Assembly: GCA_022824865.1 (NCBI GenBank)
Contig: JAJDZD010000053.1
Location: 1 to 64,000, forward strand
DNA length: 64,000 nt
From: Chloroflexota bacterium
GTDB taxonomy: Bacteria; Chloroflexota; UBA11872
Direction: 5' to 3'
Both the position numbers and the translations under genes were made by a program. A model generated the notes under the pieces. That model worked only from the letters and a program-made list of their open reading frames with translations. It did no database searches and was not told the DNA's origin. Shown one piece after another: positions 2,117 to 53,188 of the stretch; position 1 is the first letter of the stretch; every line of letters starts with the position of its first letter.

Positions 2117-5097
2117 GCCAGCCCTTCCGCCTCGACCACGGCGGCCGCATCCACCGCGACGCGCCCCTCCAATTCACCTTTGACGGACGGCCCATCGATG
2201 CATTCCGCGGCGACACCGTGGCCTCCGCCCTCCTCGCCAACGGCGTCTCCCTCGTCGGCCGCAGCTTAAAGTACCACCGTCCACGCGGCATCGTCTCCGC
2301 CGGCGCCGAAGACCCCAACGCCTTCGTCCAACTCGGCCACGGCGCCCGCACCCTGCCCAATCGGCTGGCCACCGTTACCCCCGCCACGCCCGGGCTCGAA
2401 GTCCGCCACGTCAACGCCTGGCCCAGCCTGGACTTCGACCTCATGTCGGCCTTCGGTCTCGCCGCCCCGTTCATCCCCGCCGGCTTCTACTACAAGACCC
2501 TCATGTGGCCCCGTCGCCTCTGGCCGCTCTACGAACACTTCCTGCGCCACGCCGCCGGCCTCGGCCACGCGCCCAACGCTCCTGACCCCGATCGCTACGA
2601 CCACGTCCACGCCCATTGCGACGTTCTGGTAGTCGGCGCCGGCCCGGCCGGCCTCGCCGCCGCCCGCGCCGCCGCTCAGACTGGTGCCCGCGTGATCGTC
2701 GCCGACGAACAGGCCGAATTCGGCGGCGGCCTGCTCGCCACCGCCGAGCGCGTCGACGCTCTCCCCGCACCGCAATGGGCCGACGTTGCCGCCGCCCAAC
2801 TCTCCTCGGCTCCCGGCGTCACCGTCCTCCCCAACACCACCGCCTTCGGCCTCTACGAGAGCAACCTCGTCCTGCTCGCCGAGCGCCTGCATTCCGACCA
2901 GCCCGACAACGCCGGTTCCGAAAGCGGCGCCCGCGTCTGGCGCGTCCTCCCCAAACAGATCGTCCTCGCTTCCGGCGCCCATGAACGACCCCTGCTCTTC
3001 GCCAACAACGACCGCCCCGGCGTCCTGCTCGCCGGCGCCATCTCCACCTACCTCAACCGCTACGCCGTCGCCCCCGGCTCACGCGCAGTCGTCTTCACCA
3101 ACAACGACTCCGCCTACCGCACCGCCCTCGACCTCGCCGACGCCGGAGTCCCGGTCGCCGCCATCGCCGATGTTCGAGTTGATCCCGACGGCAACCTCCC
3201 AGCCCAGGCCCGCGCGCAAGGCATCCCGGTCCACACAGGCGCCGTCGTCGTTCAGGCCCACGGCCGCGGCCGCGTCGCCGCCGCCGAGCTTTGCTCCCTG
3301 GATGGCGCCCCCCTCGGCACCGTCGAATGCGACCTCCTCGGCGTCTCCGGCGGCTTCGCTCCCGCCCTCCACCTCCACGCCCAGGCCAGCGCTCCAATGA
3401 CCTGGAATCCCGAAGTCGCCGCCTTCGCCCCCCAGCCCTCGCACGGCATCCACCCCGCTGGAGCCGTCACCGGCCAACTGGACCTGGCCTCCGTCCTCCG
3501 CCAGGGCACGGCCGCGGGAACCGCTGCCGCCGCGGCAGCCGGCTGCTCCAACGGCCACACTCCGGCAGCCCCCCAGGCCGCCGAGACTCCCACCTCGGAT
3601 CTCAAGCCCTACTGGCTCCCCCCCGGCGAACTCGCTCGCACCAAACCCCAGTTCGTCGACCTCCACGAAGACGTCACCCTCGACGACCTCCGCCTCTCCC
3701 TCCGCGAAGGCTACGAATCCATCGAGCACGTCAAGCGCTACACCACCCTCGGCATGGGACCCGACCAGGGCAAGCTCGCCAACCCCCTTGCCACCGGCGT
3801 CATCGCAGAGCTGCTCGGCCGCGACCCGGCCACCGTGGGCACCCCCCGCCACCGCCCCGCCTACTCCCCCGTCAGCCTCGGCGCCATCGCCGGCCGCCAC
3901 ATCGGCCCGCTCGCCGACCCCGTCCGCGTCACCCCCATGCAGGAGTGGCACGAATCCGCCGGTGCCCACTTCGAGAACGTCGGCCAGTGGCGCCGCGCCT
4001 GGTACTACCCCCACCCCGGCGAATCCATGCACGAAGCCGTCGCCCGCGAGTGCCTCGCCGTCCGCAACCGCGTCGGCATCCTCGACTACTCCACCCTCGG
4101 CAAGATCGAAATCACCGGCCCCGACGCCGGCGAGTTCCTCGACCGCGTCTACACCAACGCCTGGAAACGCCTCCGCCCCGGCCGCTGCCGCTACGGGCTG
4201 ATGCTCGGTGAAGACGGCATGATCTTTGACGACGGCGTCACCGCCCGCCTCGACGACCAGCGCTACCTCATGTTCACCAGCACCTCCAACGCGGCCCCCG
4301 TGCTGGCCTGGCTCGAACAATGGCTGCAGACCGAGTGGACCGACCTCCGCGTCTACCTCACCTCCGTCTCCGAGCACTGGTCCAACATCGCCCTCGCCGG
4401 CCCCCGCAGCCGCGACGTGCTGGCCGCCGCCGGCACCGACATCCCCCTCGCTCGCGACGACTTCCCCTTCATGACCTTTCGCGAAGGCCATGTCGCCGGC
4501 GTCCCCGCGCGCGTCTTCCGTATCAGCTTCAGCGGCGAACTCTCCTACGAAATCAACGTCCCTGCCGACCGCGCCCGCCACGTCTGGGAAGCCCTGTTAG
4601 ACGCCGGCCGCTCCTTCGGCATCACCCCCTACGGCACCGAGACCATGCATGTACTGCGCGCCGAAAAGGGCTTCATCATCGTCGGCCAGGAAACCGACGG
4701 CTCCGTCACACCCGATGACGTCGGCCTCGGCCGCTTGCTCTCCCGCCGCAAGGACTTCCTCGGCAAGCGCTCCCTCAGCCGCCCCGATTCCGCTCGCCCC
4801 GACCGCAAGCAACTCGTCGGCCTGCTCACCGACGACCCCGCCCTGGTCCTGCCCGAAGGCGGCCACGTTGTGGACGCGCCAGGCCGCCGGCGCCCCCTGC
4901 CCATGCGCGGCCACGTCACCTCCAGCTACTTCAGCCCCGTCCTCGGCCGCTCCATCGCCCTGGCCATGGTCTCCGGCGGCCGCGCCGCCCTCGGCGAACG
5001 CCTCTACGTCGCTACCCTCCACGACGACCGCTGGCTCCCCGTCCGCAGCTGCCACCCCGTCTTCTACGATCCCGAAGGCGCCCGCCAGCATGTCTAG
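2113..5097 (+). CDS. soxA: sarcosine oxidase alpha subunit
   Basis: Real start ATG at 2113 overlaps the soxD stop (ATGA); the supplied ORF 1873..5097 is N-terminally over-extended. Contains FDGRPIDAFRGDTVASALLANG, SLKYHRPRGI, VVGAGPAGLAAARAA and a C-terminal GCV-T domain. Confidence 0.93.
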   Translation: MSQPFRLDHGGRIHRDAPLQFTFDGRPIDAFRGDTVASALLANGVSLVGRSLKYHRPRGIVSAGAEDPNAFVQLGHGARTLPNRLATVTPATPGLEVRHVNAWPSLDFDLMSAFGLAAPFIPAGFYYKTLMWPRRLWPLYEHFLRHAAGLGHAPNAPDPDRYDHVHAHCDVLVVGAGPAGLAAARAAAQTGARVIVADEQAEFGGGLLATAERVDALPAPQWADVAAAQLSSAPGVTVLPNTTAFGLYESNLVLLAERLHSDQPDNAGSESGARVWRVLPKQIVLASGAHERPLLFANNDRPGVLLAGAISTYLNRYAVAPGSRAVVFTNNDSAYRTALDLADAGVPVAAIADVRVDPDGNLPAQARAQGIPVHTGAVVVQAHGRGRVAAAELCSLDGAPLGTVECDLLGVSGGFAPALHLHAQASAPMTWNPEVAAFAPQPSHGIHPAGAVTGQLDLASVLRQGTAAGTAAAAAAGCSNGHTPAAPQAAETPTSDLKPYWLPPGELARTKPQFVDLHEDVTLDDLRLSLREGYESIEHVKRYTTLGMGPDQGKLANPLATGVIAELLGRDPATVGTPRHRPAYSPVSLGAIAGRHIGPLADPVRVTPMQEWHESAGAHFENVGQWRRAWYYPHPGESMHEAVARECLAVRNRVGILDYSTLGKIEITGPDAGEFLDRVYTNAWKRLRPGRCRYGLMLGEDGMIFDDGVTARLDDQRYLMFTSTSNAAPVLAWLEQWLQTEWTDLRVYLTSVSEHWSNIALAGPRSRDVLAAAGTDIPLARDDFPFMTFREGHVAGVPARVFRISFSGELSYEINVPADRARHVWEALLDAGRSFGITPYGTETMHVLRAEKGFIIVGQETDGSVTPDDVGLGRLLSRRKDFLGKRSLSRPDSARPDRKQLVGLLTDDPALVLPEGGHVVDAPGRRRPLPMRGHVTSSYFSPVLGRSIALAMVSGGRAALGERLYVATLHDDRWLPVRSCHPVFYDPEGARQHV

Positions 5098-5710
5098 TCC
5101 AACACCCCGCCGCTCACCGTTCGGCGCAATCGAATCCGCGCAGCCACCTCCTCACGAAGGCCAACTCTTCGAACGCCCCTTCCTCACTCACGTCAATCTG
5201 CGATTGGACTCCGCCGACTCGGAAGCCCTCGCTGCAATCCAACAAATGCTCGGCGTCCAACTCCCGCTCACGCCCAACACCACAGCCGCCAGCCAAGGAC
5301 TCTTGGCAATCTGGCTGGGACCCGACGAATGGCTCCTGCTCGCCGCGCAAGATTATTCCGAGGCCCTGGCCAGTGATTTGCAGGCCGCTCTGACTGGCCA
5401 CGTCGCCTCCATAGTTGACATAAGTTCCGGCCAAACGGTCATTCGCCTGTCCGGGCCCTCCGCGCTCGATGTCCTCGCCCGCGGCTGCGCCCTCGATCTC
5501 CATCCCTCCGTGTTCCCACCCGGCGCCTGTGCCCAAACCATGCTCGCCCGCGCCCAGACCCTCCTTATCGCCGTCGACCTCACGCCCACCTTCGACATCA
5601 TCGTCCGCCGCAGCTTCGCCCCCTACGTCGCCGCCTGGCTCAAAGACTCCGCCCGCCAATTCGGCCTCCACTTCCCCACGACCGCAACCCCAGGAACAAC
5701 CCTTGCATAA
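5090..5710 (+). CDS. soxG: sarcosine oxidase gamma subunit
   Basis: ATG at 5090 overlapping the soxA stop; LAIWLGPDEWLLLA...DISSGQTVIRLSGPSALDVLARGCALDLHP typical of SoxG. Confidence 0.88.
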   Translation: MSSPTPRRSPFGAIESAQPPPHEGQLFERPFLTHVNLRLDSADSEALAAIQQMLGVQLPLTPNTTAASQGLLAIWLGPDEWLLLAAQDYSEALASDLQAALTGHVASIVDISSGQTVIRLSGPSALDVLARGCALDLHPSVFPPGACAQTMLARAQTLLIAVDLTPTFDIIVRRSFAPYVAAWLKDSARQFGLHFPTTATPGTTLA

Positions 5711-5758
5711 CACCCCTCGCCCCCAATACCGCGCCCGCTCTTCCTCCCTCTCTCCGTG

Positions 5759-6047
5759 GAGGCCTTTGCATAACCCCCATCCTCCGGGACGTGGCCTCTT
5801 GGCTCGCTTGGGGAAGAGGCCAGCGACGTCTTTGCCGGAGGGTGCGCGGGGTCAATCCCTTCCAGGAGAAGCCGTCTTATTCCCTCTCCCTGGCAGGGAG
5901 AGGGCTAGGGTGAGGGTCGAAAGCCCGGAATCCCTCCCAAGCCCTGAGCCAACCACGCTGCCCCCTCGCCGCCGCCGCTCTTCCCCTCTCCTGGGGAATA
6001 GACAAGGGGTCTTCGGGGCACTCGCGCTAGAGTTACGCAAAGGTCTC
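5759..6047. mobile_element. MITE-like element, TIR-bounded, 289 bp
   Basis: Left end GAGGCCTTTGCATAACCC (5759), right end GAGTTACGCAAAGGTCTC (to 6047), imperfect inverted repeats; internal CCCTCTCCCtggcaGGGAGAGGG palindrome; related elements at 23178 and 45662. Confidence 0.65.
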
Positions 6048-6049
6048 CC

Positions 6050-6928
6050 ATGACCGCCGACCTCCGCCTCGTCCTCATCGGCACCGGCAATCCAACCCCC
6101 CGCGCCCACCGCGCCGGCCAGTCCATTGCCGTCCTGACCGACAACGCCGGCGCAATCTTCGACCTCGGCCCCGGCTCCGCCATGAACCTCTTCGCCTCCT
6201 CCGTTGATCCGCTGGCCATCGATCAACTCTTCTTCACCCACCACCACTTCGACCACATGGCCGACTTCGGCCACTTCGTCATGGCCCGCTGGGACCAGGG
6301 CGCCGGCGCCGGTGACGCCCTCACCGTCTACGGCCCCCCGCCGCTTCGCCGCATCGCCGATCTGCTCTTCGGCCCCGAAGGCGTCTACGGTCCCGATCTG
6401 CATGCCCGCACCCGCCACCCCCTCAGCCAGCGCATCCACCGGCTGCGCGGAGGCCCCATGCCCCGCACCCTCCCCGTTCTGGACATCCACGAACTCGAGG
6501 AAGGCGACACCGTGGCAACCCAGAGCTGGAAAGTGACCACCGGCCCCGCCCGCCACGTCCAGCCCTACCTCACCTCGCTGTCGTATCGCCTTGAGACTCC
6601 TTCCGCTTCCGTGGTCATCTCAGGCGACACCCGCCCCCTTCCGGCGCTCGTCGATTTCGCTCGCGACGCCGACGTCCTTGTTCACATGGCCATGGACCTC
6701 CAGAACGAAATCGACCGCTGGCCCGAAATCGCCACCAGCTGCACCGGCGCCGCCGGCGCCGCCCGCATCGCCGCCCAGGCCAACGCCAAGCACCTCGTCC
6801 TCGTCCACCTGGACACCACCGCCGATCACCCCGACCGTCAGGACGCCATGCTCGCCGAAGCCCACGCCGAGTTCTCCGGCAACATCACCCTCGGCGAGGA
6901 CTTCCTCGAAATCCCCGTCACCGCCTGA
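6050..6928 (+). CDS. MBL-fold metallo-hydrolase (RNase Z / arylsulfatase-like)
   Basis: LFFTHHHFDHMADF (HxHxDH-like), VVISGDTRP, LVLVHLD. Confidence 0.9.
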   Translation: MTADLRLVLIGTGNPTPRAHRAGQSIAVLTDNAGAIFDLGPGSAMNLFASSVDPLAIDQLFFTHHHFDHMADFGHFVMARWDQGAGAGDALTVYGPPPLRRIADLLFGPEGVYGPDLHARTRHPLSQRIHRLRGGPMPRTLPVLDIHELEEGDTVATQSWKVTTGPARHVQPYLTSLSYRLETPSASVVISGDTRPLPALVDFARDADVLVHMAMDLQNEIDRWPEIATSCTGAAGAARIAAQANAKHLVLVHLDTTADHPDRQDAMLAEAHAEFSGNITLGEDFLEIPVTA

Positions 6929-7014
6929 CCACCTCGTCTCAACCCGCAGGCGAGGCCGACGTCTTCTTCCGGCGAACCGGGAGAGCAACCGTGTGCGGTG
7001 TCAAACTCTTCGAG

Positions 7015-7110
7015 GCGAAGCCGATCTTTTCCCTCTCCCTGGCAGGGAGAGGGCTAGGGTGAGGGTGGAGAGCCCGGAGTCCCTCCCAAGCCCCAGGTCA
7101 GGCACACGGT
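7015..7110. repeat. CCCTCTCCC...GGGAGAGGG palindromic repeat, near-identical to 5865..5960
   Basis: tccctctccctggcagggagagggctagggtgagggt...gagcccggagtccctcccaagcc shared with the 5759 element. Confidence 0.8.
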
Positions 7111-7316
7111 CAACATTGCGGACGATCCCGCTCTCCCACGGTCTCGCTGTACCCAGGGCTGGTCGGTCTGTCTCGGCCCAGCAGCTCAAGCCTTGGACAG
7201 TGCAAAGCCCTGGGAACATACAAGGGTTGGGGTGAGGCTCTTCCGGTCAACGCCATCCGGGCAAGCACCCCACACCGCCCACCTACCTCCTACCCGGCTC
7301 GATACCTGCAACCAAC

Positions 7317-7350
7317 GGGGCCGCGCGACCCAAACAGTCCACGCGGCCCC
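7317..7350 (-). terminator. GC-rich hairpin downstream of small ORF 7372..7470
   Basis: GGGGCCGCG (7317-7325) / CGCGGCCCC (7342-7350), perfect 9-bp arms; no U-tract. Confidence 0.4.
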
Positions 7351-7371
7351 GCGCTGCTTCTGTCTACTGCC

Positions 7372-7470
7372 TCAGGCCGCCGCGTCCCGCTCCATGCGGT
7401 ACCACCACAGCGCCAACGGAACCATCGCCACCGCCAGACCCAGCAGCCCAATCCAAGCTTTCCGCTTCAT
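7372..7470 (-). CDS. 32-aa single-pass membrane microprotein candidate (below ORF-track cutoff)
   Basis: MKRKAWIGLLGLAVAMVPLALWWYRMERDAAA*; positive N-terminus, ~20-aa hydrophobic segment, GGAG ribosome-binding-like motif just upstream, hairpin after the stop. Confidence 0.5.
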   Translation of the reverse strand: MKRKAWIGLLGLAVAMVPLALWWYRMERDAAA

Positions 7471-7587
7471 GCCGCACTCCTAACCGTATAGATCCCGTCC
7501 GGGCCAGGCCCACGCCCAACCCTCTACCTTCACCATCGTCCTGCCACCCACCCCCCGTCAGTCACCTTCACAACCATCCGCCCCCAA

Positions 7588-23177: not shown

Positions 23178-23338
23178 GAGACCTTTGCGCAACCCGAGAA
23201 GCGGGTGTGCGATGTCAATCTCCTCAAGCGGGCGCTGTTCTTTCCCCTCTCCCACGGGAGAGGAGACTTCTGGCGCCCGCGCCAGAAGGAAGGTGAGGGG
23301 TCTTCCGGGCACCCAGGCCCGGGTTACGCAAAGCTCTC
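23178..23338. mobile_element. MITE-like element, 161 bp, with putative target-site duplication
   Basis: TIRs GAGACCTTTGCGCAACCCG / CGGGTTACGCAAAGCTCTC; flanked by direct TCAGTA (23172-23177 and 23339-23344). Confidence 0.75.
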
Positions 23339-39988: not shown

Positions 39989-40327
39989 TTAGGGGCGACC
40001 GGCGACAAGCCCATGCCCGCCAGCCGGCCTCTTGTAGATCACGATCCCAACGCTCTCAATGTGTCGCTGAAGCGGCGCGTAGGTGATCTTCTCGTAGGCC
40101 TGCAGATCGCACTCCTGCGGGATTGGAAGATCGTCGAGGTCCAGGGCGAGACGTCCCAAGCGATGGTCGTCTGCAATACCTCGCGTGGCGAGGTCGATGT
40201 CGGACCGAGCATTGGCCGCCCCGGTGGCTCGTGAGCCGAAAAGCACGACTTCCGTTAGTTCCGGATACGCAACAAACACTCGCGTCAATGCAGCCAGCGT
40301 TCGGTCCGACAGTTCCGGGGCGTTCAC
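39989..40327 (-). CDS. MNT-type nucleotidyltransferase
   Basis: LTEVVLFGSRATGAANARSDIDLATRG (GSRARG...SDIDL motif). Confidence 0.94.
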   Translation of the reverse strand: MNAPELSDRTLAALTRVFVAYPELTEVVLFGSRATGAANARSDIDLATRGIADDHRLGRLALDLDDLPIPQECDLQAYEKITYAPLQRHIESVGIVIYKRPAGGHGLVAGRP

Positions 40328-40740
40328 GACCCGAGCGCCTCTTTGGCCAGCCGGTCGTACAAGTCGCCCAAAATCGAAAGGTAGCGGCGTCGCACATTGC
40401 CGGCGACGGCCTCGAACCTGGCAGCGTCGTAGGTGTGAGCCATCAGATTTCGATCGGTCAGCATGTCAATCCACGCATCACCGTCCTCGATGAGCTTGGC
40501 TCTGAACGCTGCCCGGATCACATGGCGCGGGCTGACGGTGTCGAGCATCAAACCGTCGTACTCCATCCGGTCCTTGAGCGTGTTCCAGGCCAACTCGAAC
40601 GTGTACTCAAAGCGCTGGATCACTCCTTCACGCTCCAACTGGCTCAAGTCCTTGACTTCCACCTCCAGCGCCTCCCGCAAGAGGGCGTAAGCCCGCGAGA
40701 AGTTCCTAAACCGGTACTTCCAGCGAACTTCCTCGCTCAC
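40324..40740 (-). CDS. HEPN / nucleotidyltransferase substrate-binding protein (HI0074-like)
   Basis: RFRNFSRAYALLREALE...EREGVIQRFEYTFELAWNTLKDRMEYDG...SPRHVIRAAF; overlaps MNT. Confidence 0.92.
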   Translation of the reverse strand: MSEEVRWKYRFRNFSRAYALLREALEVEVKDLSQLEREGVIQRFEYTFELAWNTLKDRMEYDGLMLDTVSPRHVIRAAFRAKLIEDGDAWIDMLTDRNLMAHTYDAARFEAVAGNVRRRYLSILGDLYDRLAKEALGS

Positions 40741-41882
40741 CGCACCGCCACCCACGCCCGCTCCCGCTCCGACTCCCGTGCCGCGTCTACCGCCCGCGCC
40801 ACCGCCAGCCCGTCGTGAAAGCTCGCCAGTTGGGTGGGCGTACCGGCGGCATGCGCCCGCAGACCCGGAATCACAATCTCCCGGAACATCGCCGTATTCT
40901 GCGCCCGCGGCGACTCGTGGACCCGTACCGGCACGTCGATCACCTCGGTGTCGACCCCGCGCACCAGGCTCACCTGGCCGGCCCGCCGGTTGCCCCCCGA
41001 GTAGCTCACAAACGCCGACGCCTTGGACCCGTGCACCTGCACGTCGGGTGTCGGCCCGGGCCGCGTAAACGTGGTTTGGCCCGCGGTGAATGTGAACAGC
41101 GCCCCCGAGGCCATCTCACCGTGAATCGTCCCAAAGTCGCTCGCGGTCACCTGTGCCATTGGGGTTCCTGGCGCCGCCCCCTGCGGGTTCTCGGCCGACC
41201 AGCGGTTGGCGTCGACTCGCGAAATGTCACCCATATCCGGCCGCTCCGGCACCACGATAGGCAGGTGGCCCAACACCGCGGTGATCTCGCTGCCGGTCAG
41301 GTAGCACGCCAGGTCCAGCAGGTGCACACCCAGCAGGCCGATCGACCCGGCCGGGCACTCCTCCTCGGTCATCCACCACTGCACCGGCTCGTGCAGCGCG
41401 CGCGGCTGCCAGATGCGGCCGAACATCGCCTGCACCTCGCCGATCTCGCCCTCATCGATCAGCCGGCGGACGGTCTGCATCGGTTCCGCGAACCGCATGT
41501 AGTGCCCCAGGCCGTGGCCCAGCCCCGTGCGCTCCGCCGCCGCCACCATCTCGGCGCACTGCTCCGCCGTATTGGCCAGCGGCTTCTCGCACAGCACGTG
41601 CTTGCCCGACTCCAGCGCGGCAACGGCCACCGGGTGGTGCATCGCGTTGCTCGTCACAATCGCTACCACGTCCACGTCGTCCCGCGCCACCAACTCGCGC
41701 CAATCCGTATGGGTGTCGGGATTCCCATAGGCCGCCGCGGTCTCCGCCAGCGGCCCGGGCCTGCGGGCGGCTATCGCACGCAGCTCCAGGTCGGGCAGGT
41801 CAATGGCCGGGTTCAGATAGGTCGGCGCAAAAAGCCCGGTCGCCCCAACCACGCCCATTCGCAAGGCGGTTCCTTCATTCAT
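40737..41882 (-). CDS. Gfo/Idh/MocA family oxidoreductase
   Basis: GVVGATGLFAPTYLNPAI...HPVAVAALESGKHVLCEKPLANTAEQCAEMV. Confidence 0.93.
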   Translation of the reverse strand: MNEGTALRMGVVGATGLFAPTYLNPAIDLPDLELRAIAARRPGPLAETAAAYGNPDTHTDWRELVARDDVDVVAIVTSNAMHHPVAVAALESGKHVLCEKPLANTAEQCAEMVAAAERTGLGHGLGHYMRFAEPMQTVRRLIDEGEIGEVQAMFGRIWQPRALHEPVQWWMTEEECPAGSIGLLGVHLLDLACYLTGSEITAVLGHLPIVVPERPDMGDISRVDANRWSAENPQGAAPGTPMAQVTASDFGTIHGEMASGALFTFTAGQTTFTRPGPTPDVQVHGSKASAFVSYSGGNRRAGQVSLVRGVDTEVIDVPVRVHESPRAQNTAMFREIVIPGLRAHAAGTPTQLASFHDGLAVARAVDAARESERERAWVAVR

Positions 41883-41894
41883 GTTGATGCCACC

Positions 41895-42506
41895 TCAAAG
41901 CGGGTCTGGAACGTCCGGTGCGGGCCGGCCGCGCAGTTCACGCGAAACGCTGACGAGATAGTAAAGGCCTGAAGCAAGCGTCATGACCAACGCGAACATC
42001 ACCAGAGCCCAGGTCAGCGGCACCCGGTCCCAGATCAGCGCGGCCAGACCGATGTATTGCCACATCATTTTCATCTTGCCCAACTGCCCCGCGCTTACCG
42101 TAACGCCCTGCGCCCCGGCGTAGGCCCGCATTCCCATCACGAAGATCTCGCGTCCGATGAATCCAACCGCAATCCACCCCGGAATCCAGCCCAGCTCCAC
42201 CATCGTGATCACCAGTGCGGCCACCACCAGCTTGTCGCCCACCAGGTCGAAGAAGATCCCCAGCTGCGAGCCGGACCCATAGCGACGCGCGATCAGCCCG
42301 TCCAGCACATCCGTGATGCCCGCCACAATGAACAGGCAGGCGGCCGCCTGGTTCGAGGCTTGGCCGTCCCACAGCAGCAGCCCGATCACCAGCGGGATCA
42401 CCAGCACTCGGAACCCGGTCAACAGGTTGGGCAGACTGGCAATCCACCCGGTTGCATCCCGGTCCGCGGACCGCGGGCCGATACCGTTCGCTTGCGGGGA
42501 CGTCAT
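41895..42506 (-). CDS. pgsA: CDP-diacylglycerol--glycerol-3-phosphate 3-phosphatidyltransferase
   Basis: LPNLLTGFRVLVIPLVIGLL...DVLDGLIARRYGSGSQLGIFFDLVGDKLVV (CDP-alcohol transferase motif). Confidence 0.93.
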   Translation of the reverse strand: MTSPQANGIGPRSADRDATGWIASLPNLLTGFRVLVIPLVIGLLLWDGQASNQAAACLFIVAGITDVLDGLIARRYGSGSQLGIFFDLVGDKLVVAALVITMVELGWIPGWIAVGFIGREIFVMGMRAYAGAQGVTVSAGQLGKMKMMWQYIGLAALIWDRVPLTWALVMFALVMTLASGLYYLVSVSRELRGRPAPDVPDPL

Positions 42507-42510
42507 TGGC

Positions 42511-43185
42511 TCAGCCACCGGCGTCAACCTGCCAGGTCCGCTGATACGATCCGCCGGGCGGACCCAGCAATCCCATCGCGGCGCCGTCGATTCGCACCTC
42601 GATCGCGTCGGGCGCTTCGGCCCGCACCACGATTTCCCGCTGCGGCGACCACGTCTGGCTCGACCCGGCCGAGATCTGTCCATCAAAGACCGACCGGCCG
42701 TCCACCACCACCGCAATCTCGGTAGGGCGCACGGCTACCAGTTCCAGCACGCTGCCTGGCCGCAGCCCGATGCCGGTCGGCGTCGCGACGGGCGTCGACG
42801 ACCCGGAAGCCGCCGGTAGGGGCAGTCCGCCGGATCGGACCACGAGCAGCACCGCCACCACGATCACGGCCACTCCGGCAAAGACCCCGGCTATCAGGCG
42901 CCCCTGGCGACGCCGCAGCGCCCGGTTGGGCGCGCTGGCGGCAAGGCGTCGCGTGTTCAGGGCCGTGGCGTAGGCGTTCAACACGGGCTCTTCCGGCACC
43001 GCCAGCGCCCGGGTATACACGCGGATCAGCCCCCGCGTGAACGGCTCCGCCGGCAACACATCCAGGTTGTCGGTTTCCAGCGCAATCAGATTGTGGCGTG
43101 GAATCCTCGTGGCGCTCGAAACCGCCTCAAGGCTCATCCCGGCCTGGTCCCGCGCCGCGCGCAGCATTTCACCCATCGTCGCCAT
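42511..43185 (-). CDS. RodZ-like helix-turn-helix membrane protein (HTH_25 + DUF4115-like)
   Basis: MGEMLRAARDQAGMSLEAVSSATRIPRHNLIALETDNLDVLPAEPFTRGLIRVYTRALAV; TM; C-term VVVDGRSVFDGQISAGSSQTW. Confidence 0.88.
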   Translation of the reverse strand: MATMGEMLRAARDQAGMSLEAVSSATRIPRHNLIALETDNLDVLPAEPFTRGLIRVYTRALAVPEEPVLNAYATALNTRRLAASAPNRALRRRQGRLIAGVFAGVAVIVVAVLLVVRSGGLPLPAASGSSTPVATPTGIGLRPGSVLELVAVRPTEIAVVVDGRSVFDGQISAGSSQTWSPQREIVVRAEAPDAIEVRIDGAAMGLLGPPGGSYQRTWQVDAGG

Positions 43186-43226: not shown

Positions 43227-44702
43227 TCAGGTTCGCTGAATGCTGAAGTCCGGCCGCGGCTTCAGGATGATCCCAAGTCCCGTCAGCCGTTCGTTGGCGT
43301 TAGCGATGTCCACGAACCGGTTAAGGAAGTCGTCCATGCCCGACCGCAACTCCTCGTTCACCGCTGCGCTATTGCCCTCGTGCTCGGTGACCAGCGAGTC
43401 GCGCCACGAAGCCAGCAACTGCGTCAGGCCCTCCTGCAGGATGGCGGCTACGAACTGATCCGCGAACTCGGGCACCCCCAGCCGGATATACGCGGTCAGG
43501 TCGGTCACGTCGTACTGGAACTGCACCACCAGATCTTCAGGCTCCGCCTCCGTCGGAAATATCAGCGTCACCGGCGCCGCTCGATCCGTCAGGTTGATCA
43601 GCCGTCGATCCGTCACCGGTTGCGGCCAGCTCCAGAAGAGTCCCGGGCCCTGCACGACGCTGAGCGTGCCCACGCCGGATTCCTCCGGCTGGTCGAATCC
43701 CTTACCCAGCGACAACACGCCGGCGCTGCCTGGAAACACCACCGCCTCGTTCTGAAGCAGGATCAGCGCGTCGTCGGCGCTCAACCGAAAGACCCCGGCG
43801 GCCAGGAACGTCACGACCGCCGCCAGGGCGCCCAGCAGCAGAATCGCCGGAACGGTCACGAACGTGGGCACGCGCGACCGTGAGGCCGGGTCGTAAGGCG
43901 ACGTAATCGTGGCAATGTGCGCCGAGTTCCGCCGCGCGTATAGCCCTGGAATCAGGCGCCGCGGCGGGCGGCCGGCCCGGCGAAATTGGGCGGCCATGTC
44001 GGCTGCGAAGGCCTGCACCGCGTCCTGGTTGTAGTGGGCCGCCAATTGCTTCAGCCGGTCGAACCTCGTCGCCAGGCGCAGCGCCCGCTGGCCGTCGACC
44101 CGTGCCCGTCCGCCCATCAGGCTCCCGATGTCTGCCAGCAGCCCATCGGCGGCGGCCAGGAACGGCCCTGCGCCCTCGCGCACCTGCAGGTCGGCGACCC
44201 GCAGCGCGCCCTCGGCGCCGCGAGCCAGCGGGTGTGCCGCAACCCGTCCGCGGGCGCGGCGGATCAACCAACCGGACGGCAGCAGGGAGATGAGGACGGC
44301 CAGCGGCAGTCCGCCCAGGGAACCGCCGGCGCTGCCCAGGAAGTCGGCAACACTCGCTCCCACGGCCGGGACATTGCGAATCGGCACCGACATCAGCCCC
44401 AGCAGCGCCGCGACCAGGAACGGCAATCCCACCGCCGCGATCACGTGCACCCAGAGCCGCGCCCGGACATGGCGCCCTGAACGTCGCAGTTCCCGCACGG
44501 CCTTGGCTTCGATCCGATCCACGGCTGAGGTGTCGTCGGGACGCGCATCGACCCATAGGGTGCGAGCCGGAATCAGCACTCGCCCCGCCACTTGCCTGAG
44601 CCGGTGCCGGTCGTGCGCGATCAGCACCGAACCGTGCGGGCCCGCGGGAATCGGCACGTAGTCCAGCGGAATCGCCGCGGGATCGTCCCGTTCGGCCGTC
44701 AT
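43227..44702 (-). CDS. membrane protein with SPFH/HflK-like C-terminal domain
   Basis: NEAVVFPGSAGVLSLGKGFDQPEESGVGTLSVVQGPGLFWSWPQPVTDRRLINLTDRA...LVVQFQYDVTDLTAYIRLG. Confidence 0.75.
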   Translation of the reverse strand: MTAERDDPAAIPLDYVPIPAGPHGSVLIAHDRHRLRQVAGRVLIPARTLWVDARPDDTSAVDRIEAKAVRELRRSGRHVRARLWVHVIAAVGLPFLVAALLGLMSVPIRNVPAVGASVADFLGSAGGSLGGLPLAVLISLLPSGWLIRRARGRVAAHPLARGAEGALRVADLQVREGAGPFLAAADGLLADIGSLMGGRARVDGQRALRLATRFDRLKQLAAHYNQDAVQAFAADMAAQFRRAGRPPRRLIPGLYARRNSAHIATITSPYDPASRSRVPTFVTVPAILLLGALAAVVTFLAAGVFRLSADDALILLQNEAVVFPGSAGVLSLGKGFDQPEESGVGTLSVVQGPGLFWSWPQPVTDRRLINLTDRAAPVTLIFPTEAEPEDLVVQFQYDVTDLTAYIRLGVPEFADQFVAAILQEGLTQLLASWRDSLVTEHEGNSAAVNEELRSGMDDFLNRFVDIANANERLTGLGIILKPRPDFSIQRT

Positions 44703-44732
44703 GCTCGCCATGGACGACGGTTCGGTCCGCAT

Positions 44733-45641
44733 CTACAGCGTCTCCGGCGCCACGGCGGCCGGCCCGGCGATGAAGACGGCGCCGGCCGCTGCGGCCAGGG
44801 CCGCTGCGCGTTGGCTCGCCATCCGACCCACCGCCACGGCCGAAGCGCCAATCGCCCCGGTCCCGTGCGCCGCCCACGAAGCCAGCGTGCGGTCGGGCGG
44901 CTGCCCCGGGGTGGTCGCCAGCACCCCTGGCGCAAGCGAAAGAACGCCAGCCATGTGCAGGTCGTCGTTTTGCGGCGTCAGCAGGTTGATGCCGCGCCGG
45001 CGAATCTCATCCGCGGTGCGCTGCCCTTCGTCCTCGCCGATTCGCGCGCGCCGGTCGTCATGCCACCGTGCCTCGGACTGCTGGCCGTGCGCATGGAGGA
45101 TCAAGGCGAGTTCCTGGGCCTCAATTGCCGCGCCCCCGTCGCGCAGGTCCAGCACAAACGACGGCTCAAAGGCGTTCAGCGATGCGCGCAAGGCGGCCCA
45201 CGCCCGGGGCCGCAGCGGCGAGGCCAGCAACCGCAGGGCGGCGGGCAGGCCGAACGCCGGCTGCTCCGGCTGGGGAATGTCCCCAAACGCAGCGGGCTCC
45301 ACCAGGTACAGCAGCAGCGCAACACGCGAGAGCAGCGACTGTCGGTCGCTGGCGGGCGTCCCGAACGCGCGCGCCACGGCCCGTCCGGCCGCCAGCACTG
45401 GCATCGTGAGTGTGTTGGGCGCCGCGTCGATCGCGATTCGGACCTCGGCCGCGGAGTCGCCGGCTGTCAACTCCAACAGGCGACCTTCCTGCAGGCCCCC
45501 GATGGGCCCTTCGTAGATCGTGCGCTGGGCATAGACGCCGGCCAGCTTCGAGGTCTCGTCCCGCCAGTCCGTCGGGCGCAGCAACCGGCGATAGCGCGAC
45601 TCGTCAATCGGAATGTCAACGCGCACGCCCTCGGCAATCAC
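44733..45641 (-). CDS. uncharacterised protein of the 43-47 kb cluster
   Basis: Intact 303-codon frame, same strand and close spacing; no recognised family. Confidence 0.65.
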   Translation of the reverse strand: MIAEGVRVDIPIDESRYRRLLRPTDWRDETSKLAGVYAQRTIYEGPIGGLQEGRLLELTAGDSAAEVRIAIDAAPNTLTMPVLAAGRAVARAFGTPASDRQSLLSRVALLLYLVEPAAFGDIPQPEQPAFGLPAALRLLASPLRPRAWAALRASLNAFEPSFVLDLRDGGAAIEAQELALILHAHGQQSEARWHDDRRARIGEDEGQRTADEIRRRGINLLTPQNDDLHMAGVLSLAPGVLATTPGQPPDRTLASWAAHGTGAIGASAVAVGRMASQRAAALAAAAGAVFIAGPAAVAPETL

Positions 45642-45661
45642 GGCTCAACGCCCCCGCTATT

Positions 45662-45793
45662 TGAGACCTTTGCATAACCCTTCTTCCTCGGAGCCGCAGC
45701 CTCTTGCCTCTCCGGGGGGAGAGGCCGGCGCCGTCTTCGGCGGCGGGTGAGGGGTCTTCCGCGCAACCAACCTCGGGTTACGCAAAGGTCTCT
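45662..45793. mobile_element. MITE-like element, 132 bp
   Basis: GAGACCTTTGCATAACCC ... GGGTTACGCAAAGGTCTC, 17/18 inverted match. Confidence 0.82.
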
Positions 45794-45801
45794 ACTTGGG
45801 A

Positions 45802-46503
45802 TCATCCCGGTCCCCCGGTTGCCGCGGCCGGGGCTGGCAGCGCCAGCCGCCACGGGTTGTGCAGGGTCTCGTCCGCGACCCAGAAGCCGATGTGCGGCGG
45901 CAGTGTGGACGGGTGCATGCCCCCCGCCAGGGCCTCGTATACCTCGGCAACCTCGTCCAGCCCGTCCGCCCGCGCCAGCACCGCGCCCAGGGCGTAGGCC
46001 GCCGTGTCGTCGTCGACCTCCCGCATCGCGCGCTCGATACGCCCAAGTCCGGCGTGAGCGTCCGAGCTGACCAGCGGCGACTGCGCCGGCGCGGCCGGCG
46101 ACTGGGCCACCGGCGTAGCCAGGCCAAGCAGCCATCGCAACCAGCGCCGGCCGGCCAGCAACCAGGCGCCCGCCAGCGCCGGAACCCAGTGCCCTCCGGA
46201 GGCGATGATGAGCGCCAGCCCCAACGCCACTTCCATCCAGATCATCATGCGTCCGCGGCGTCGCGACCCATCTCGCGGCGCGGCGTCTCCGGCCATGCGC
46301 GCATAGTCCACGGCCATCGTGGCGGCCCGCGCGGCCAGGGGCGCCGAAAACTGCTGGCTTTGCGGCTGGATCAGCGCAATGCGCCAGCCCCAGAACTGCG
46401 GGCTCCGGGATGGCGCCGCCTGCAGAATCGCGGCCGTCGAACGATCGGCTCGCAGCACATAGCCGTCACGAATCGGTACCGCCCAGCAGGCTAGGTTCAT
46501 CAT
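45802..46503 (-). CDS. uncharacterised membrane protein of the 43-47 kb cluster
   Basis: ATG overlaps the stop of the upstream gene; TM pair MEVALGLALIIASGGHWVPALAGAWLLAG. Confidence 0.7.
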   Translation of the reverse strand: MMNLACWAVPIRDGYVLRADRSTAAILQAAPSRSPQFWGWRIALIQPQSQQFSAPLAARAATMAVDYARMAGDAAPRDGSRRRGRMMIWMEVALGLALIIASGGHWVPALAGAWLLAGRRWLRWLLGLATPVAQSPAAPAQSPLVSSDAHAGLGRIERAMREVDDDTAAYALGAVLARADGLDEVAEVYEALAGGMHPSTLPPHIGFWVADETLHNPWRLALPAPAAATGGPG

Positions 46504-47306
46504 TGCGAGCGAGCTTCCAGGTACGTCAGCGGATGAGGCGCCGCCCATTGGCCGCGCGCTCGGGCCCGCAGCCGTGCCAGTCGGCCTTGTGGTGTGGAGA
46601 CCTTGGGCGCGGCCGCCAGGGCTCGATAGAACCGTGCCGCCGCCGGCCAGCGCACACGGACTCGCGCCGCGCGCTCCAGGCGCATCAGGTCGCGCGGCTC
46701 GTTGGGCTGGTCGATAAACCGCCAGAGATCGCGCAGCCGCGCCAGCGAGTCCCCGTCGCGCCCAATGGCCGTTGTCGGCAGCAATTCGCCAACCTCCAGC
46801 GTTGCCCGTGCGCGTGCGCCGACCCGCCGCCGCGCCACCGCGCGCCAGGCCAAAAACAGGCCCGGAACGAATCCCAGCGGTACTGCCCAGGCCACCACCG
46901 CATGCACCGGCTCACGGTTCAGGAATAGAAACGCCAGCAGGACACCGACCACGCCCAGTTCAAGCAACCCCGTCAGCAGCGCCAGCAGCCACCGCCGGCC
47001 CTCCCCAGCCGTACGCACCGCGTGCGTAAACAGATCCGCCTCGACCCGCGCCCGGATTACCGCCAGTTCCCCCATCGAGAGCGGCAACCGGCTATACAGC
47101 GCGATCTGAAACGGTCCGGCCACGGCGTCCAACTGCCCGTAGTCGGCGTCGATCAGCACCACGCTCCCCGTGTCCGTGGGAACCACGAATGCGTCAATCA
47201 GTTGGGCGTTTGGATCGGAGTCCTGCACGGCGATAGAAGGCTCCAGCGGCGCCACGGCGCGCCACGACGACGGCGGCGCAAGTATCCGAGTGTATATCGC
47301 CGTCAA
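46500..47306 (-). CDS. uncharacterised membrane protein of the 43-47 kb cluster (TTG start proposed)
   Basis: [24 protein letters not shown] + TM hairpin; resembles the N-terminus of the 43227..44702 product. Track ORF to 47672 is over-extended into mnmG. Confidence 0.7.
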
Positions 47307-47352
47307 ACCTGAAATTGGACCTAAACACACTGGCGCGTGGGAAGATGAAGCC

Positions 47353-49338
47353 ATGCGTTTGCGACGACCCCGCACTCCCGCCGCCAGCTTCGACGTTTTG
47401 ATCGTGGGTGCCGGCCACGCCGGTTGCGAGGCGGCCCTGGCCGCCGCGCGCATGGGCTGCCGCACCGCCCTGCTGAGCACCAGCCTCGGCACCGTCGCCC
47501 AGATGCCCTGCAACCCCTCCATCGGCGGCCCGGCCAAGGGCAACCTCGTCCGCGAGATTGACGCCCTCGGCGGCGAGATGGGCCGCAATACCGACCGCAC
47601 CCAGATCCAGATCCGCGAGCTCAACACCAGCAAGGGCCCGGCCGTCCGCGCCCTCCGTGCCCAGTGCGACAAGCATGCCTACGGTCGGCTCATGCGGCGA
47701 GTGCTGGAGAGACAGCCCAACCTGACGCTCCTCGAAGCCCACGTAGCGGGCCTCATCTGGGATGCCGAACCCTCGGAAGGAGCGCCCGCTTGGCGCGTAC
47801 GCGGCGTCCGAACGAGTGAGGGCGAGGAAATCCGCGCCCGTGCCACCGTCGTCACCACCGGGACATTCCTGCAGGGCCGGATCATCCTGGGCGACTCCGA
47901 ATCCCCGGGCGGACGCCGCGGCGAACCGCCCGCCACGGCCCTATCCGAAGACCTGCGTCGGGCCGGCCTGGAACTCGGCCGCCTCAAGACCGGCACCCCG
48001 CCGCGTCTTGCCGCCGCCAGCATCGACTACAGCCGCACCCGCGTGCAGCACGGCAGCGAGCAGCCCCTCTGGTTCAGCTTCGATCCGCCGCCCCGCTCCG
48101 AGTGGCACGAGGCCGCGCCGGACCCCGTCTATCCCCACGTCCCGCCCCCCGGCTGGCGCACCCAGATGGCCTGCTACCAGGTCCACACCACGCCGCAAAC
48201 CCACGATCTCATCCGCGACAACCTGCACCGCGCGCCCATGTACAACGGTTCGATCACCGCCTCCGGCCCGCGCTACTGCCCCTCCATCGAAGACAAGATC
48301 GTCCGATTCGCGCACAAGGACTCCCACTCCCTCTTCCTCGAACCCGAGGGGTTCCGGACCCATGAGGTCTACGTCCAGGGCGCCAACACCAGCCTGCCCG
48401 CCGAAGTGCAGCTCGCCATGATTCGCACTGTTCCTGGCCTGGAATCTGCAGAGATGCTTCGTCCCGGCTACGCCGTGGAGTACGACTTCGTCCACCCCCG
48501 CCAGCTTCGGCGCTCCCTCGAAGTCCGCAACGCCCGCGGCCTCTTTCTGGCCGGCCAGGTCAACGGCACCACCGGCTACGAAGAAGCCGCCGCCCAGGGC
48601 CTCATGGCCGGCATCAACGCCGCGCGCCAGTCACGCGGCGAGCCTGCCGTCGAGCTCGACCGTGCCCAGGCCTACATCGGCGTGATGATCGACGACCTCG
48701 TCACCAGTGAGCTCACCGAGCCCTACCGCCTCCACACCTCGCGTGCCGAGTACCGTCTGCTCCTCCGCCACGACAGCGCCGACCGCCGCCTCACCGAACT
48801 TGGACACGAAATCGGCCTCGCCTCGGATCGCCGTCTCGCCCGCCTCCGCCGCCAGCGCGACCGGTCCGACGCCACTCTGGCCTGGCTGGAGCGCCTCCGC
48901 GTGCCGGCCACGTCTGCGGTCAACGGACGCCTCCGCGACCTAGAACTGGCCCCGCTCCGCCAGACCACCCGCGGCCTCGAACTCCTGGCCCGCACCGGCA
49001 TCACCTGCGACCTCATCGCCGAACTCGCGGGCGATCCCCCGCCTCCACCCGAGGCCGCCGCCCACGTCGAATTTGAGATCAAGTACGCCGGCTACATCCG
49101 CCAGCAGGAAGCCCAGGTCCGCCGTGCCGCCGCGATGGAAGATCACCGGATTCCGTCCGACCTGGCCTACCTCGACCTCCGCGCCTTGCGCACCGAGGCC
49201 CGCCACCGCCTCGAACGCTTCCGTCCCGCCACCGTTGGGCAGGCCGCCCGCCTCGAAGGCGTCACCCCATCCGACATCGCCGGCCTCCTCGTCTACCTCA
49301 AGCGCCACACCGAAACGGCTGACGCCGAGCGGCGCTAG
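47353..49338 (+). CDS. mnmG: tRNA uridine-5-carboxymethylaminomethyl synthesis enzyme MnmG/GidA
   Basis: [83 protein letters not shown] at 47353 (track ORF over-extended). Confidence 0.97.
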
Positions 49339-49410: not shown

Positions 49411-51189
49411 CTACGGCATACGCCGCCTGATCCGCCGGATCACCGTGCGATGCACGCCCAGCGCGCCAAGCCCCAGCGCGCCAAGGACTGCCGCGATTGG
49501 GGCAACGATGATCCCTACGACAATGGCCGCGTTGGCCGCCCACTGCCCGATCCGCGTCAAGACCTCAACCGAATTGTCAACCGTCTCGCCGGGATCCCAG
49601 TCGTCGCTCTCACTCACGACGAACTCTCCGTCTTCGCCCTTGGGAATCGCGGTGATAAACGTCACGCGTCGGTTATCCACGCGCGCGCGGTCGCTCTCCG
49701 TGGACTCGATGGACGTTGCGAGCCATTGTCGTCCGGTATCGGCATCGAGCCGGACGACGTAGCTCACGCTGCCGCTGGCGCCGGGCGAAAGCTCGGGAAA
49801 CTCCCAAACGATCTCATTCCGGTCGGTATCAAATCGCCCGCCCCGATTCGCTCGCATGAACGTCATGCCGGTGGGAAGCCGCTCGACCAGGCGCACGTCC
49901 CGCGCGTCCCCGTTACCTCGATTCGAGTAATTCAGCACCATCGTCAACTCTTGATCGATTTCAATCTCGAGGTCGGGGTCCTGCTGGAGGCTCAGGTCCA
50001 CGAAGAACGGCAAGGTGACGCCGGCCTGGTCCTGTTCCGTGTTGCGAACATCGCTGTCCGTGCTCGCCTCGGCGCTCAGTCGCATCGCCTGGCCGTCACC
50101 CTCAAGGCGAACGCGCGTGCGAAGTTCGAGCGACTGACCCGGCGCCATTCGGTCGATCGTCCACACCACGCTATGCGTGGATTGGTCGTACTGCCCTGGC
50201 TTCGTCGCGTTCTGGAACACCAAACCCGGATCTAGCTGATCGCGCACGGTCACGTTCCGGAGTTCCACCGTCCCGTCATTGATCACGCTGATCGGAAACT
50301 CAACCGAGTCGTGCATGGAGTACTGGTCGGGCGCCCGCCGTTCCACCCGAAGGTCCGGGATCGGATGCAGATTGACCGTGACGGTCGACAGCGCCGCCTG
50401 GTCCGCCAGCACGTTCAGCTGACCCTGGAACGTCTCGATCTGTTCACGCACCTGGGCAACTTCGCGCTGCACGTCCAGCGTGTCCTTCACGGTCCTGGAC
50501 GTCGCCATGATTTCCAGCAACTGCTGCTCGGTGGCCTGCGCGTTTCGCATCCGGGACTCGATGTCCGTAAACGCAGCCGTAACGTCCTGCCCGGTCACGT
50601 CCTCAGCCACCACCTCGCGCCCGTGAGCGCGCACACGTTCGACTGTCTCGTCAAAGCGCTCGGCCGGCACCCGCAACGTGATCGAACTGATCCGGTACGG
50701 CTCGTTGCCTCCGATTTTGGTGTGCGACACGAAGGCCCCGGGAATCGAAGCCACGATGCCGCGGATCGCCTTCACGCTGGTCGGCACGTCAGCCACCACG
50801 ATGCCGATGCTGGCGGTGCGAATGACCTTGCGCGCGGAGTTCGGAACCTGCGTCTCAGCAGTCAGCAGCGAGCCGGTGGATGTCTGGCTCGGGGCGCCGT
50901 CCGCCGGCGCCGCCTCCTGGACGACCGAGCCCGTCTCCCCCGGATCCGTGGTCGCGACGGCGTCGAATTGGACCGCCTGCGTCACCACCTTTTCGACCTG
51001 TACCGACCTCTGAGCGGCCATTGGGGCGGCAGCGGCAGCTGGCATGGCAGCCGGCCGGGCCACCATCTTCTCAACGGCTGGTGGCTGTGCAGCCTGAGGG
51101 GGCTCGGCCGACGAACTTTCTCCGCATGACGCCACCAGCATCGCCGCCAACGGTATTGCCAATATCAGCGATCGTCTCGGTCCTCGCAT
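49411..51189 (-). CDS. lipoprotein with DUF4349 and DUF11-like repeats, copy 1
   Basis: Lipobox MLVASC; DUF4349 RKVIRTASIGIVVADVPTSVKAIRGIVASIPGAFVSH; LNYSNRGNGDARDVRLVERLPTGMTF. Confidence 0.88.
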   Translation of the reverse strand: MRGPRRSLILAIPLAAMLVASCGESSSAEPPQAAQPPAVEKMVARPAAMPAAAAAPMAAQRSVQVEKVVTQAVQFDAVATTDPGETGSVVQEAAPADGAPSQTSTGSLLTAETQVPNSARKVIRTASIGIVVADVPTSVKAIRGIVASIPGAFVSHTKIGGNEPYRISSITLRVPAERFDETVERVRAHGREVVAEDVTGQDVTAAFTDIESRMRNAQATEQQLLEIMATSRTVKDTLDVQREVAQVREQIETFQGQLNVLADQAALSTVTVNLHPIPDLRVERRAPDQYSMHDSVEFPISVINDGTVELRNVTVRDQLDPGLVFQNATKPGQYDQSTHSVVWTIDRMAPGQSLELRTRVRLEGDGQAMRLSAEASTDSDVRNTEQDQAGVTLPFFVDLSLQQDPDLEIEIDQELTMVLNYSNRGNGDARDVRLVERLPTGMTFMRANRGGRFDTDRNEIVWEFPELSPGASGSVSYVVRLDADTGRQWLATSIESTESDRARVDNRRVTFITAIPKGEDGEFVVSESDDWDPGETVDNSVEVLTRIGQWAANAAIVVGIIVAPIAAVLGALGLGALGVHRTVIRRIRRRMP

Positions 51190-51463
51190 CGCTAACCTCC
51201 TCGCCAGATACATGCTTCGGCGTCGCCCGACAGGTGCTGAGACTCCCTTACGTCGATGCCGGTGCATTGCACACCGTGCGCCATCGACGATGACCTCAAC
51301 TTAGGAGACGCAACCCTGTCGGCACAACGTCACCTCGGCTCTGTCAGTACGGCTCCACAGATAACTACGCTAACCCGACGAGATTCGTTCCCTGCGTTCT
51401 GGGCTTCGTCTCTCACGACTGCACCGCGCGGCCGGGCCGAGCCTCCCGACCGCTGGCCTACGC

Positions 51464-53188
51464 TTATGCCTCCGAGCGGGTCCGCCGTTTCTTGATCGCC
51501 CGTACGCCCCGCCAGACCAGTACCCCAACCACCGCAAACGGCCCCGCCACGATCACCACCACGATCGCCGCATTCGCCAGGAAGCGCAGAACGTCCAGCA
51601 GCAGCCCCACCGCGCCCCGCGCCGTAGTCCCCGGCCCAAACACGTCCCGGCCCGCCACGTCTTCCGGCAGCGCCGTCAGGAACGTCACCACCCGATTGTC
51701 CACGTCGGCCCGGTCCTCGTCGGCCGACACGATCGTCGTCTCGGTCTCGAACCGTCCCTCGCTCCGCTCCACCCGCGCCTCGTAGAACACACCCTGACCC
51801 GAGTCCGGTGCCATGCGCGGAAACTCCCACACCACCGTCCGCGTGCCCTCGTCGTAGCGCCCGCCGCCCTCCGCGCGCACGAACGTCATGCCCTCCGGCA
51901 GGCGCTCCGTCAGCCGAACCTCCCGCGCGTCCCCGTTGCCGCGATTGTGGAAGTTGATGTAGTAGCTGACGTCCTGACCCACCGGGACCGACGCCTCGCC
52001 CTCCTTGAACACGCTCAGGTCCACGAAGAACGGCAGCGTCGCCTCCGCCCGGTCCTCATCCGGTTCGCGCACGACTCCGCTGGCCGTAATCGTCGCCGTC
52101 ACCCGCATCGGCGAACCGTCGCCCTCCAGCCGCACCCGCGACCACACGTCTTGCGAGGTGTTTGCGCCCACCCGGTCGATCTCCCAGACCACGCTATGCG
52201 AGGCCGCCTCGTAGACCCCCGGCGACGACGCCCACTCAAACACCATCCCCGGCGCCAGCTGGTCCCGCACCACCACGTCGCGCAGGTCCACCGTGCCGTG
52301 ATTGGCAATCGTGATCGGCATCTCGGCACTGCCGTGCATCACGTAGCCCTCGGGTGACAGCCGCTCGATCCGCAGGTCCGGCGCCGGGTGCAGCCGCACC
52401 GTGATCGTCGCCAGGTCCGTCTGATTCGCCAGCAGGTTCAACTGCCCCTGCAACACCTCGATGCGTGAGCGCACCTCCAGCAATTCCCGCTGCACCTCCA
52501 GCGTGTCGCTCACCGTCTGCGCCGTCGCCAGGATGTCCAGCAACTGCCGCTCCGTCGCCTCCGCCGTCCGCAGCCGCGCCTCCAGGTCGGTGAACTCCGC
52601 CGTCACGTCGCGCCCGCCTACGTCCTCGAACACCACCTCGCTGCCCTGCTCGCGCACCAGCCCCCGAACCTCGTCAAACCGCTCCACCGGCGCGCGCAGC
52701 GTCACCGTGCTGATCGACCGCGGATCGTCGTCCCGCACGTCCGCCGACGCCACAAACGCCCCGGGAATCCCGTCAACCAGCGCCTGCAACCGCCGCACCG
52801 CCTCCGCAATGTCCCCCACCACGATCCCAATCGTGGCGTCGCGAATCACCCGCCGCTCAGTCGCCGCGGCTTGGACGATGGACTCCTGGCTCTCCGACTC
52901 AACCTGCACCTTGGCCGCTGCCGGCGCGGCTGGCGCCGCCGAAGTGTCGGCAACCCGAATCACCGCCCGCTCCGCCGCCATCCCCATTGCCGTCGCCGTT
53001 TCGCGCGACATGCGATCGCTCTCCTGCACAACCATCGCCGCCGGCCCCTCCGGGGCCATCGCCATCGCGGGCGCGGCCATCGACCGCTCCTCGCTCTCCC
53101 CGCCAAACGGGGATTCCCCGCACGCCGCCAAACCCAGCGCGCCTACCACCAAAGCGGCCACCAACACTCGAAGTCCCCTCGGCATCAC
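51464..53188 (-). CDS. lipoprotein with DUF4349 and DUF11-like repeats, copy 2
   Basis: Lipobox LAAC; RRVIRDATIGIVVGDIAEAVRRLQALVDGIPGAFVAS; INFHNRGNGDAREVRLTERLPEGMTF. Confidence 0.88.
   Translation of the reverse strand: MMPRGLRVLVAALVVGALGLAACGESPFGGESEERSMAAPAMAMAPEGPAAMVVQESDRMSRETATAMGMAAERAVIRVADTSAAPAAPAAAKVQVESESQESIVQAAATERRVIRDATIGIVVGDIAEAVRRLQALVDGIPGAFVASADVRDDDPRSISTVTLRAPVERFDEVRGLVREQGSEVVFEDVGGRDVTAEFTDLEARLRTAEATERQLLDILATAQTVSDTLEVQRELLEVRSRIEVLQGQLNLLANQTDLATITVRLHPAPDLRIERLSPEGYVMHGSAEMPITIANHGTVDLRDVVVRDQLAPGMVFEWASSPGVYEAASHSVVWEIDRVGANTSQDVWSRVRLEGDGSPMRVTATITASGVVREPDEDRAEATLPFFVDLSVFKEGEASVPVGQDVSYYINFHNRGNGDAREVRLTERLPEGMTFVRAEGGGRYDEGTRTVVWEFPRMAPDSGQGVFYEARVERSEGRFETETTIVSADEDRADVDNRVVTFLTALPEDVAGRDVFGPGTTARGAVGLLLDVLRFLANAAIVVVIVAGPFAVVGVLVWRGVRAIKKRRTRSEA

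Follow-up and report, generated by a model that had tools for sequence, protein, structure and literature searches.

A conserved four-gene cluster with a fused SPFH domain next to rodZ in a class of Chloroflexota, a candidate membrane scaffold

Introduction

SPFH proteins are universal organisers of membranes, and the jobs they do are still poorly understood. The question raised by the locus described here is whether four neighbouring genes of a Chloroflexota bacterium, one of which encodes an SPFH domain, work as a single unit and, if so, in which process. These genes, which we call A, B, C and D, lie on the minus strand of a 64,000-nucleotide stretch (contig JAJDZD010000053.1, referred to as the window) of a 3.5-Mb metagenome-assembled genome, flanked by the divergent mnmG on one side and by rodZ-pgsA on the other. 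A preliminary description of the window had regarded them as a candidate uncharacterised system, a judgement that we share: the genes are conserved, scans of Pfam and NCBIfam gave no family for A, B or C, sequence searches of the PDB with the four products returned no credible match, and we found no description of such a gene set in open-licence papers. Our tentative preference is that the quartet is one functional unit particular to a class of this phylum, in which A, B and D would form a heteromeric membrane scaffold with C as its adaptor, involved in the organisation of the envelope together with RodZ.

Four closely packed genes under purifying selection

Gene starts were corrected by comparison with relatives. 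Gene A (46500..47228, minus strand, 242 aa) most likely begins at the GTG at 47228 rather than at 47306, because its relatives begin there and because at two related loci (L033 and L035) the open frame offers no earlier start than this GTG. Gene B (45802..46503, minus strand, 233 aa) starts with the ATG at 46503, sharing 4 nt with the 3′ end of A. The TAG stop of gene C (44733..45641, minus strand, 302 aa) directly abuts the ATG of gene D (43227..44732, minus strand, 501 aa). The four genes are closely packed, and in one relative (L038) the A/B, B/C and C/D junctions all consist of 4-nt overlaps. With these new starts, the four same-strand genes initially reported for this region are indeed present. 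Comparison with five relatives gave dN/dS values of 0.11–0.23 for each of the four, indicative of purifying selection and therefore of real coding genes, and an origin as artefacts or antisense frames is ruled out by these values and by the conservation of the genes. Two other origins were considered. PADLOC gave no match for A–D as an anti-phage defence system, and the idea that the quartet belongs to a prophage is unsupported because its synteny with mnmG, rodZ and pgsA is class-wide.

A, B and the N-terminal half of D are paralogues

We used hhalign to compare profiles whose alignments took in members of four families of the class. A and B matched each other with a P value of 8.3e-6 (83%, 180 columns), whereas A matched D with 4.6e-6 when the full length of D was used and with 2.5e-6 (89%, 194 columns) when D was limited to residues 1–290. 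The match between B and D(1–290) reached 6e-4 and covered the helical part only. In comparison, control pairs with RodZ, PgsA, Gfo, ABC and C never gave a P value better than 0.009, reversed profiles never better than 0.026, and 120 block-shuffled profiles never better than 0.016. These comparisons indicate homology between A, B and the first 290 residues of D, each of which has an N-terminal module, a transmembrane hairpin and a helical domain. In A, the hairpin is predicted at approximately residues 84–102 and 108–126, ahead of a putatively cytoplasmic helical domain, and B has the same architecture; in D, hhalign, hydropathy and the positive-inside pattern delimit an equivalent region at residues ~20–285 (43878..44675, minus strand) with its hairpin at 98–116 and 139–157. 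The N-terminal module that had been recognised by eye in the first and last products, and the similar build suspected for the second, were in this way corroborated, with a homology that extends beyond the N-terminus to the whole of A and B. The proposal of paralogous membrane subunits holds for A, B and D, and the label of a membrane cluster must be restricted to these three, since C is predicted to be a soluble protein. As a fourth paralogue, C was tried and rejected (hhalign P 0.28–0.82).

The charges around the hairpin suggest how these proteins may be inserted. Most members carry 2–6 Lys or Arg residues before the hairpin, 0–1 in its loop and 3–6 after it, a positive-inside pattern that is consistent across the family. 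Judging from this pattern alone, A, B and D would have both hairpin ends in the cytoplasm, and the SPFH domain of D would be left outside after a third transmembrane segment, the flanks of which give a weak signal.

D is an SPFH protein different from HflK

Beyond its A/B-like half, D continues with this third hydrophobic segment (residues 297–315 in the window protein), found in all 25 members, and with an HflK-like SPFH domain at residues ~311–500 (43233..43802, minus strand), assigned through Foldseek and profile comparison. The Pfam model Band_7 scored below threshold on the window protein (E 0.28), and the best of the other members reached 1.6e-4. An AlphaFold2 model built from 25 sequences (pLDDT 82) matched prohibitin 8rrh (1.6e-5) and 7vhq, an HflK/C-type complex (6.4e-5), with a probability of 1.00, and further matches included flotillin, stomatin and the E. 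coli FtsH-HflKC structures. In this line, hhalign against the pooled SPFH proteins of the same class gave P 8.8e-6 and, when these resident proteins were separated by type, 2.5e-4 for HflK, 0.027 for HflC and 0.09 or worse for the others. An SPFH-like domain had previously been proposed for the last product only, and that is where these data place it.

D resembles HflK and HflC, the SPFH3 modulators of FtsH, in having its SPFH domain after a transmembrane segment and in a predicted extracytoplasmic location, with HflK as its closest type. It differs from them in an extra N-terminal half of 290 residues with its hairpin, in the lack of a C-terminal coiled coil, of an HflC partner gene and of a match to the hflK family, and in its grouping with A, B, C and rodZ. 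An NCBIfam scan of D gave no family up to E 1, and thus no HflK or HflC model, whereas genuine HflK and HflC proteins from this class match TIGR01933 and TIGR01932 and occur as a tandem pair in family f4. D is the sole SPFH gene of its locus, where no tandem hflK-hflC arrangement is seen. We conclude that D is an SPFH protein but not HflK, because it has no coiled coil and true HflK and HflC exist separately in f4.

A second known arrangement to be compared is that of the SPFH-NfeD operons, which join a stomatin or flotillin gene to NfeD (PMC2636767). In both cases, membrane and peptidase-fold partners accompany an SPFH gene within an operon that is conserved. However, Pfam and NCBIfam scans of A, B and C revealed no NfeD match in the quartet, where the partners are instead SPFH-less paralogues of the N-terminal half of D, and an M14-like pseudopeptidase stands where those operons have a ClpP-class protease. 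The SPFH domain is a known element, but its fusion to an A/B-type half, its SPFH-less paralogues and its pseudopeptidase partner are new as far as we have searched.

C, a carboxypeptidase look-alike without a zinc site

The AlphaFold2 model of C (20 sequences, pLDDT 83, pTM 0.88) has as its top Foldseek matches M14 metallocarboxypeptidases and related metallopeptidases (4b6z with E 4.7e-7, 2qvp and 3b2y). In M14 enzymes zinc is bound by H69, E72 and H196 (PMC11266112). The equivalent places in C, located by topology, are ‘IDAAPNTL’ for the HxxE motif and ‘DLRDGG’ for the third ligand, and none of them holds a conserved His or Glu among 20 members, nor is there a conserved set of His, Cys or Glu. 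C would then have an M14-like fold by prediction, with the zinc site absent and homology to the family unproven. Since neither an N-terminal signal nor a consistent transmembrane segment was seen in C, the protein is presumed to be cytosolic. A precedent of interest is offered by the inactive eukaryotic members of the M14 family, which are known to act through protein-protein binding (PMC11266112). C is set apart from the family by the absence of equivalents of H69/E72/H196, the lack of profile similarity, its apparently cytosolic location and its SPFH-linked operon.

As a separate observation, several genomes of the genus of the window (G001, G005, G007, G008 and G010, among others) carry another SPFH gene, convergent to a gene for a secreted-looking M14 peptidase.

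Distribution of the quartet

Profile searches over 41 genomes of the class found A and C in 33 genomes each, against 32 for D and 28 for B. Where the B profile misses although A and C are present, the genomes are of genera g7 or g9, and there A and C enclose an open frame whose start is comparable; one such frame (L083, 6328–7416) belongs to the sole g9 genome with a weak B-profile match. A, C and D are jointly absent from six genomes of family f4 and from two more (G021 and G040). The first of these two shows an empty site (L085), with rodZ (4569–5324) and the divergent mnmG (5597–7564) separated by 272 nt and no quartet between them. D is lacking in a single genome that carries A and C (G039), most likely through a missing contig, because this assembly is 81% complete and rodZ is missing as well. 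In an even sample of 400 genomes of the phylum, C was confined to this class, and so was D except for two weak profile matches, one to its hairpin region (G207:C116:9817–10197, E 1.6e-5) and one to its SPFH region (G247:C10:68258–68668, E 9e-5).

The order mnmG / A-B-C-D / rodZ / pgsA is conserved across most of the class and is old. In the g7 and g9 genomes the block has been split, with A-B-C near mnmG and D-rodZ elsewhere, and all the parts have been kept. Moreover, D directly adjoins rodZ in 31 of the 32 genomes that carry it, also where A-B-C sits at another locus, and in the remaining one (G037) both genes lie at contig ends. A gene-neighbourhood search had been suggested as a check of the preliminary description, and the quartet does co-occur in other genomes of the class; both this co-occurrence and the N-terminal homology, the two points on which that description hung, were found.

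Just upstream of D-rodZ, genus g7 has genes for a flagellin and for a right-handed beta-helix protein (L049, 4679–6972, and likewise L074).

A possible membrane scaffold and its alternatives

How could the four products act together? In the reading that we tentatively prefer, A, B and D would be paralogous subunits in which a transmembrane hairpin separates two cytoplasmic parts, the N-terminal module and the helical domain. D alone would continue through its third transmembrane segment to an extracytoplasmic HflK-like SPFH domain, through which the subunits could gather on the outer face of the membrane, whereas C might attach to the helical domains in the cytoplasm, either as an adaptor or as a sensor of peptide tails. 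With its constant neighbour RodZ as partner, such a scaffold would most likely organise membrane domains or the growth of the envelope. The microdomain side of the complex once suggested for this locus is kept in such a proposal, while protease regulation, its other side, is unproven, with C lacking catalytic residues and D the C-terminal coiled coil. A bolder version seems doubtful to us, namely that we face a new class of scaffold, with the SPFH domain mounted on the novel A/B/D family and combined with a cytosolic pseudo-carboxypeptidase, working with RodZ in envelope growth as a hetero-oligomer that lacks the customary coiled-coil cage.

Several observations weigh against the preferred reading. 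The model of D has a pTM of only 0.59, and the protein ends with its SPFH domain at residue 501, when a C-terminal coiled coil for oligomerisation is typical of classic SPFH proteins (PMC2636767); this absence counts against the classic SPFH subfamilies and not against the SPFH fold. The likeness of C to M14 enzymes is at the level of the fold (TM-score about 0.5, rmsd about 7 Å), and its membership of the family at the sequence level was rejected, as hhalign gave P 0.33–0.5 against three M14 groups from the same and related genomes, two of which matched each other with 5e-19 as a positive control. As for RodZ, the quartet is similar to the RodZ/MreB elongasome loci in that it adjoins rodZ-pgsA, with D-rodZ kept in nearly all D genomes, but none of the A–D proteins is a known elongasome component. 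Moreover, rodZ and mreB are both present in genomes devoid of the quartet. RodZ therefore does not need it, so that any coupling between them would be one-way, and the adjacency of D and rodZ may be just a relic of an old operon.

The main rival explanation is that the complex replaces HflK/HflC, D standing in for HflK, and gates FtsH or another membrane protease from the outer face. The SPFH domain of D is indeed closest to HflK among the resident types (P 2.5e-4 versus 0.027 or worse), its predicted topology would match that of HflK, and the distribution of tandem Band_7 genes is partly complementary to that of the quartet: they occur in f4, which has the hflK-hflC pair and lacks the quartet, and none is listed for the quartet-bearing families f1–f3. 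Yet the quartet and a tandem pair coexist in family f5, and G021 and G040 show neither. D also ends without a C-terminal coiled coil or cap, no FtsH gene was seen beside the quartet, and the SPFH domain occurs in D but not in A or B, all of which makes us consider this substitution unlikely. A simpler possibility would be four separate functions held together by the transcript shared with rodZ-pgsA. The age of the gene order and the conservation of the block over most of the class would fit such mere co-transcription, which is nonetheless improbable because every part was kept after the block split in g7 and g9 and because losses take the set together. Very unlikely in our opinion is that C is an active enzyme of another chemistry, either a zinc-free or a differently liganded hydrolase with an M14-like fold, which A, B and D would bring to the membrane. 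Some positions of C, including W26, D168 and R278, do not vary within the class, and D168 is found where the strand bearing the third zinc ligand of M14 ends, but in none of the 20 members are the ligand sites occupied by a conserved set of His, Cys or Glu, and the M14 likeness goes no further than the fold.

The preferred scaffold is of interest for a wider reason. Here an SPFH domain is fused to a family of membrane subunits that also exists without it, and is genetically tied to the cell-shape gene rodZ as well as to a pseudopeptidase. If the parts form a complex, they would offer an example of an SPFH domain used without a coiled-coil cage, as well as a way into the study of how the envelope is organised in a class of Chloroflexota that is little known.

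Neighbouring genes and other elements of the window

The neighbours of the quartet, which are not counted in it, are easily recognised. Gene rodZ (42511..43185, minus strand; HTH_25 and RodZ_C) lies 41 nt downstream of D and is accompanied by pgsA (open frame 41895..42716, minus strand, with the true start probably near 42470; CDP-OH_P_transf and TIGR00560). On the other side, mnmG (open frame 47170..49338, plus strand, true start near 47360) diverges from A.

Between B and C lies an insert of 130 nt (45663..45792) similar to a miniature inverted-repeat transposable element, with inverted ends of 18 nt, which is not part of the system: it is absent in five relatives, where the B–C gap measures 22–25 nt. 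The window holds three such copies (5759–6047, 23178–23338 and 45663–45792), whose interiors vary but whose 18-nt inverted ends (GAGACCTTTGCATAACCC) are common to all. The six matches to these ends compare with 0.02 expected, and the same ends are also found at L035 and L072.

Two other pairs of genes deserve mention. Between gyrA and mnmG there are tandem paralogues (49411–51267 and 51464–53188, minus strand), each with a DUF4349 and two DUF11 repeats. Finally, two overlapping genes (39989–40327 and 40324–40755, minus strand) encode a Polbeta-type nucleotidyltransferase (E 4e-12) and an NTase_sub_bind protein (E 4e-39), a pair (39989–40755) that resembles the MNT/HEPN-like two-gene modules.

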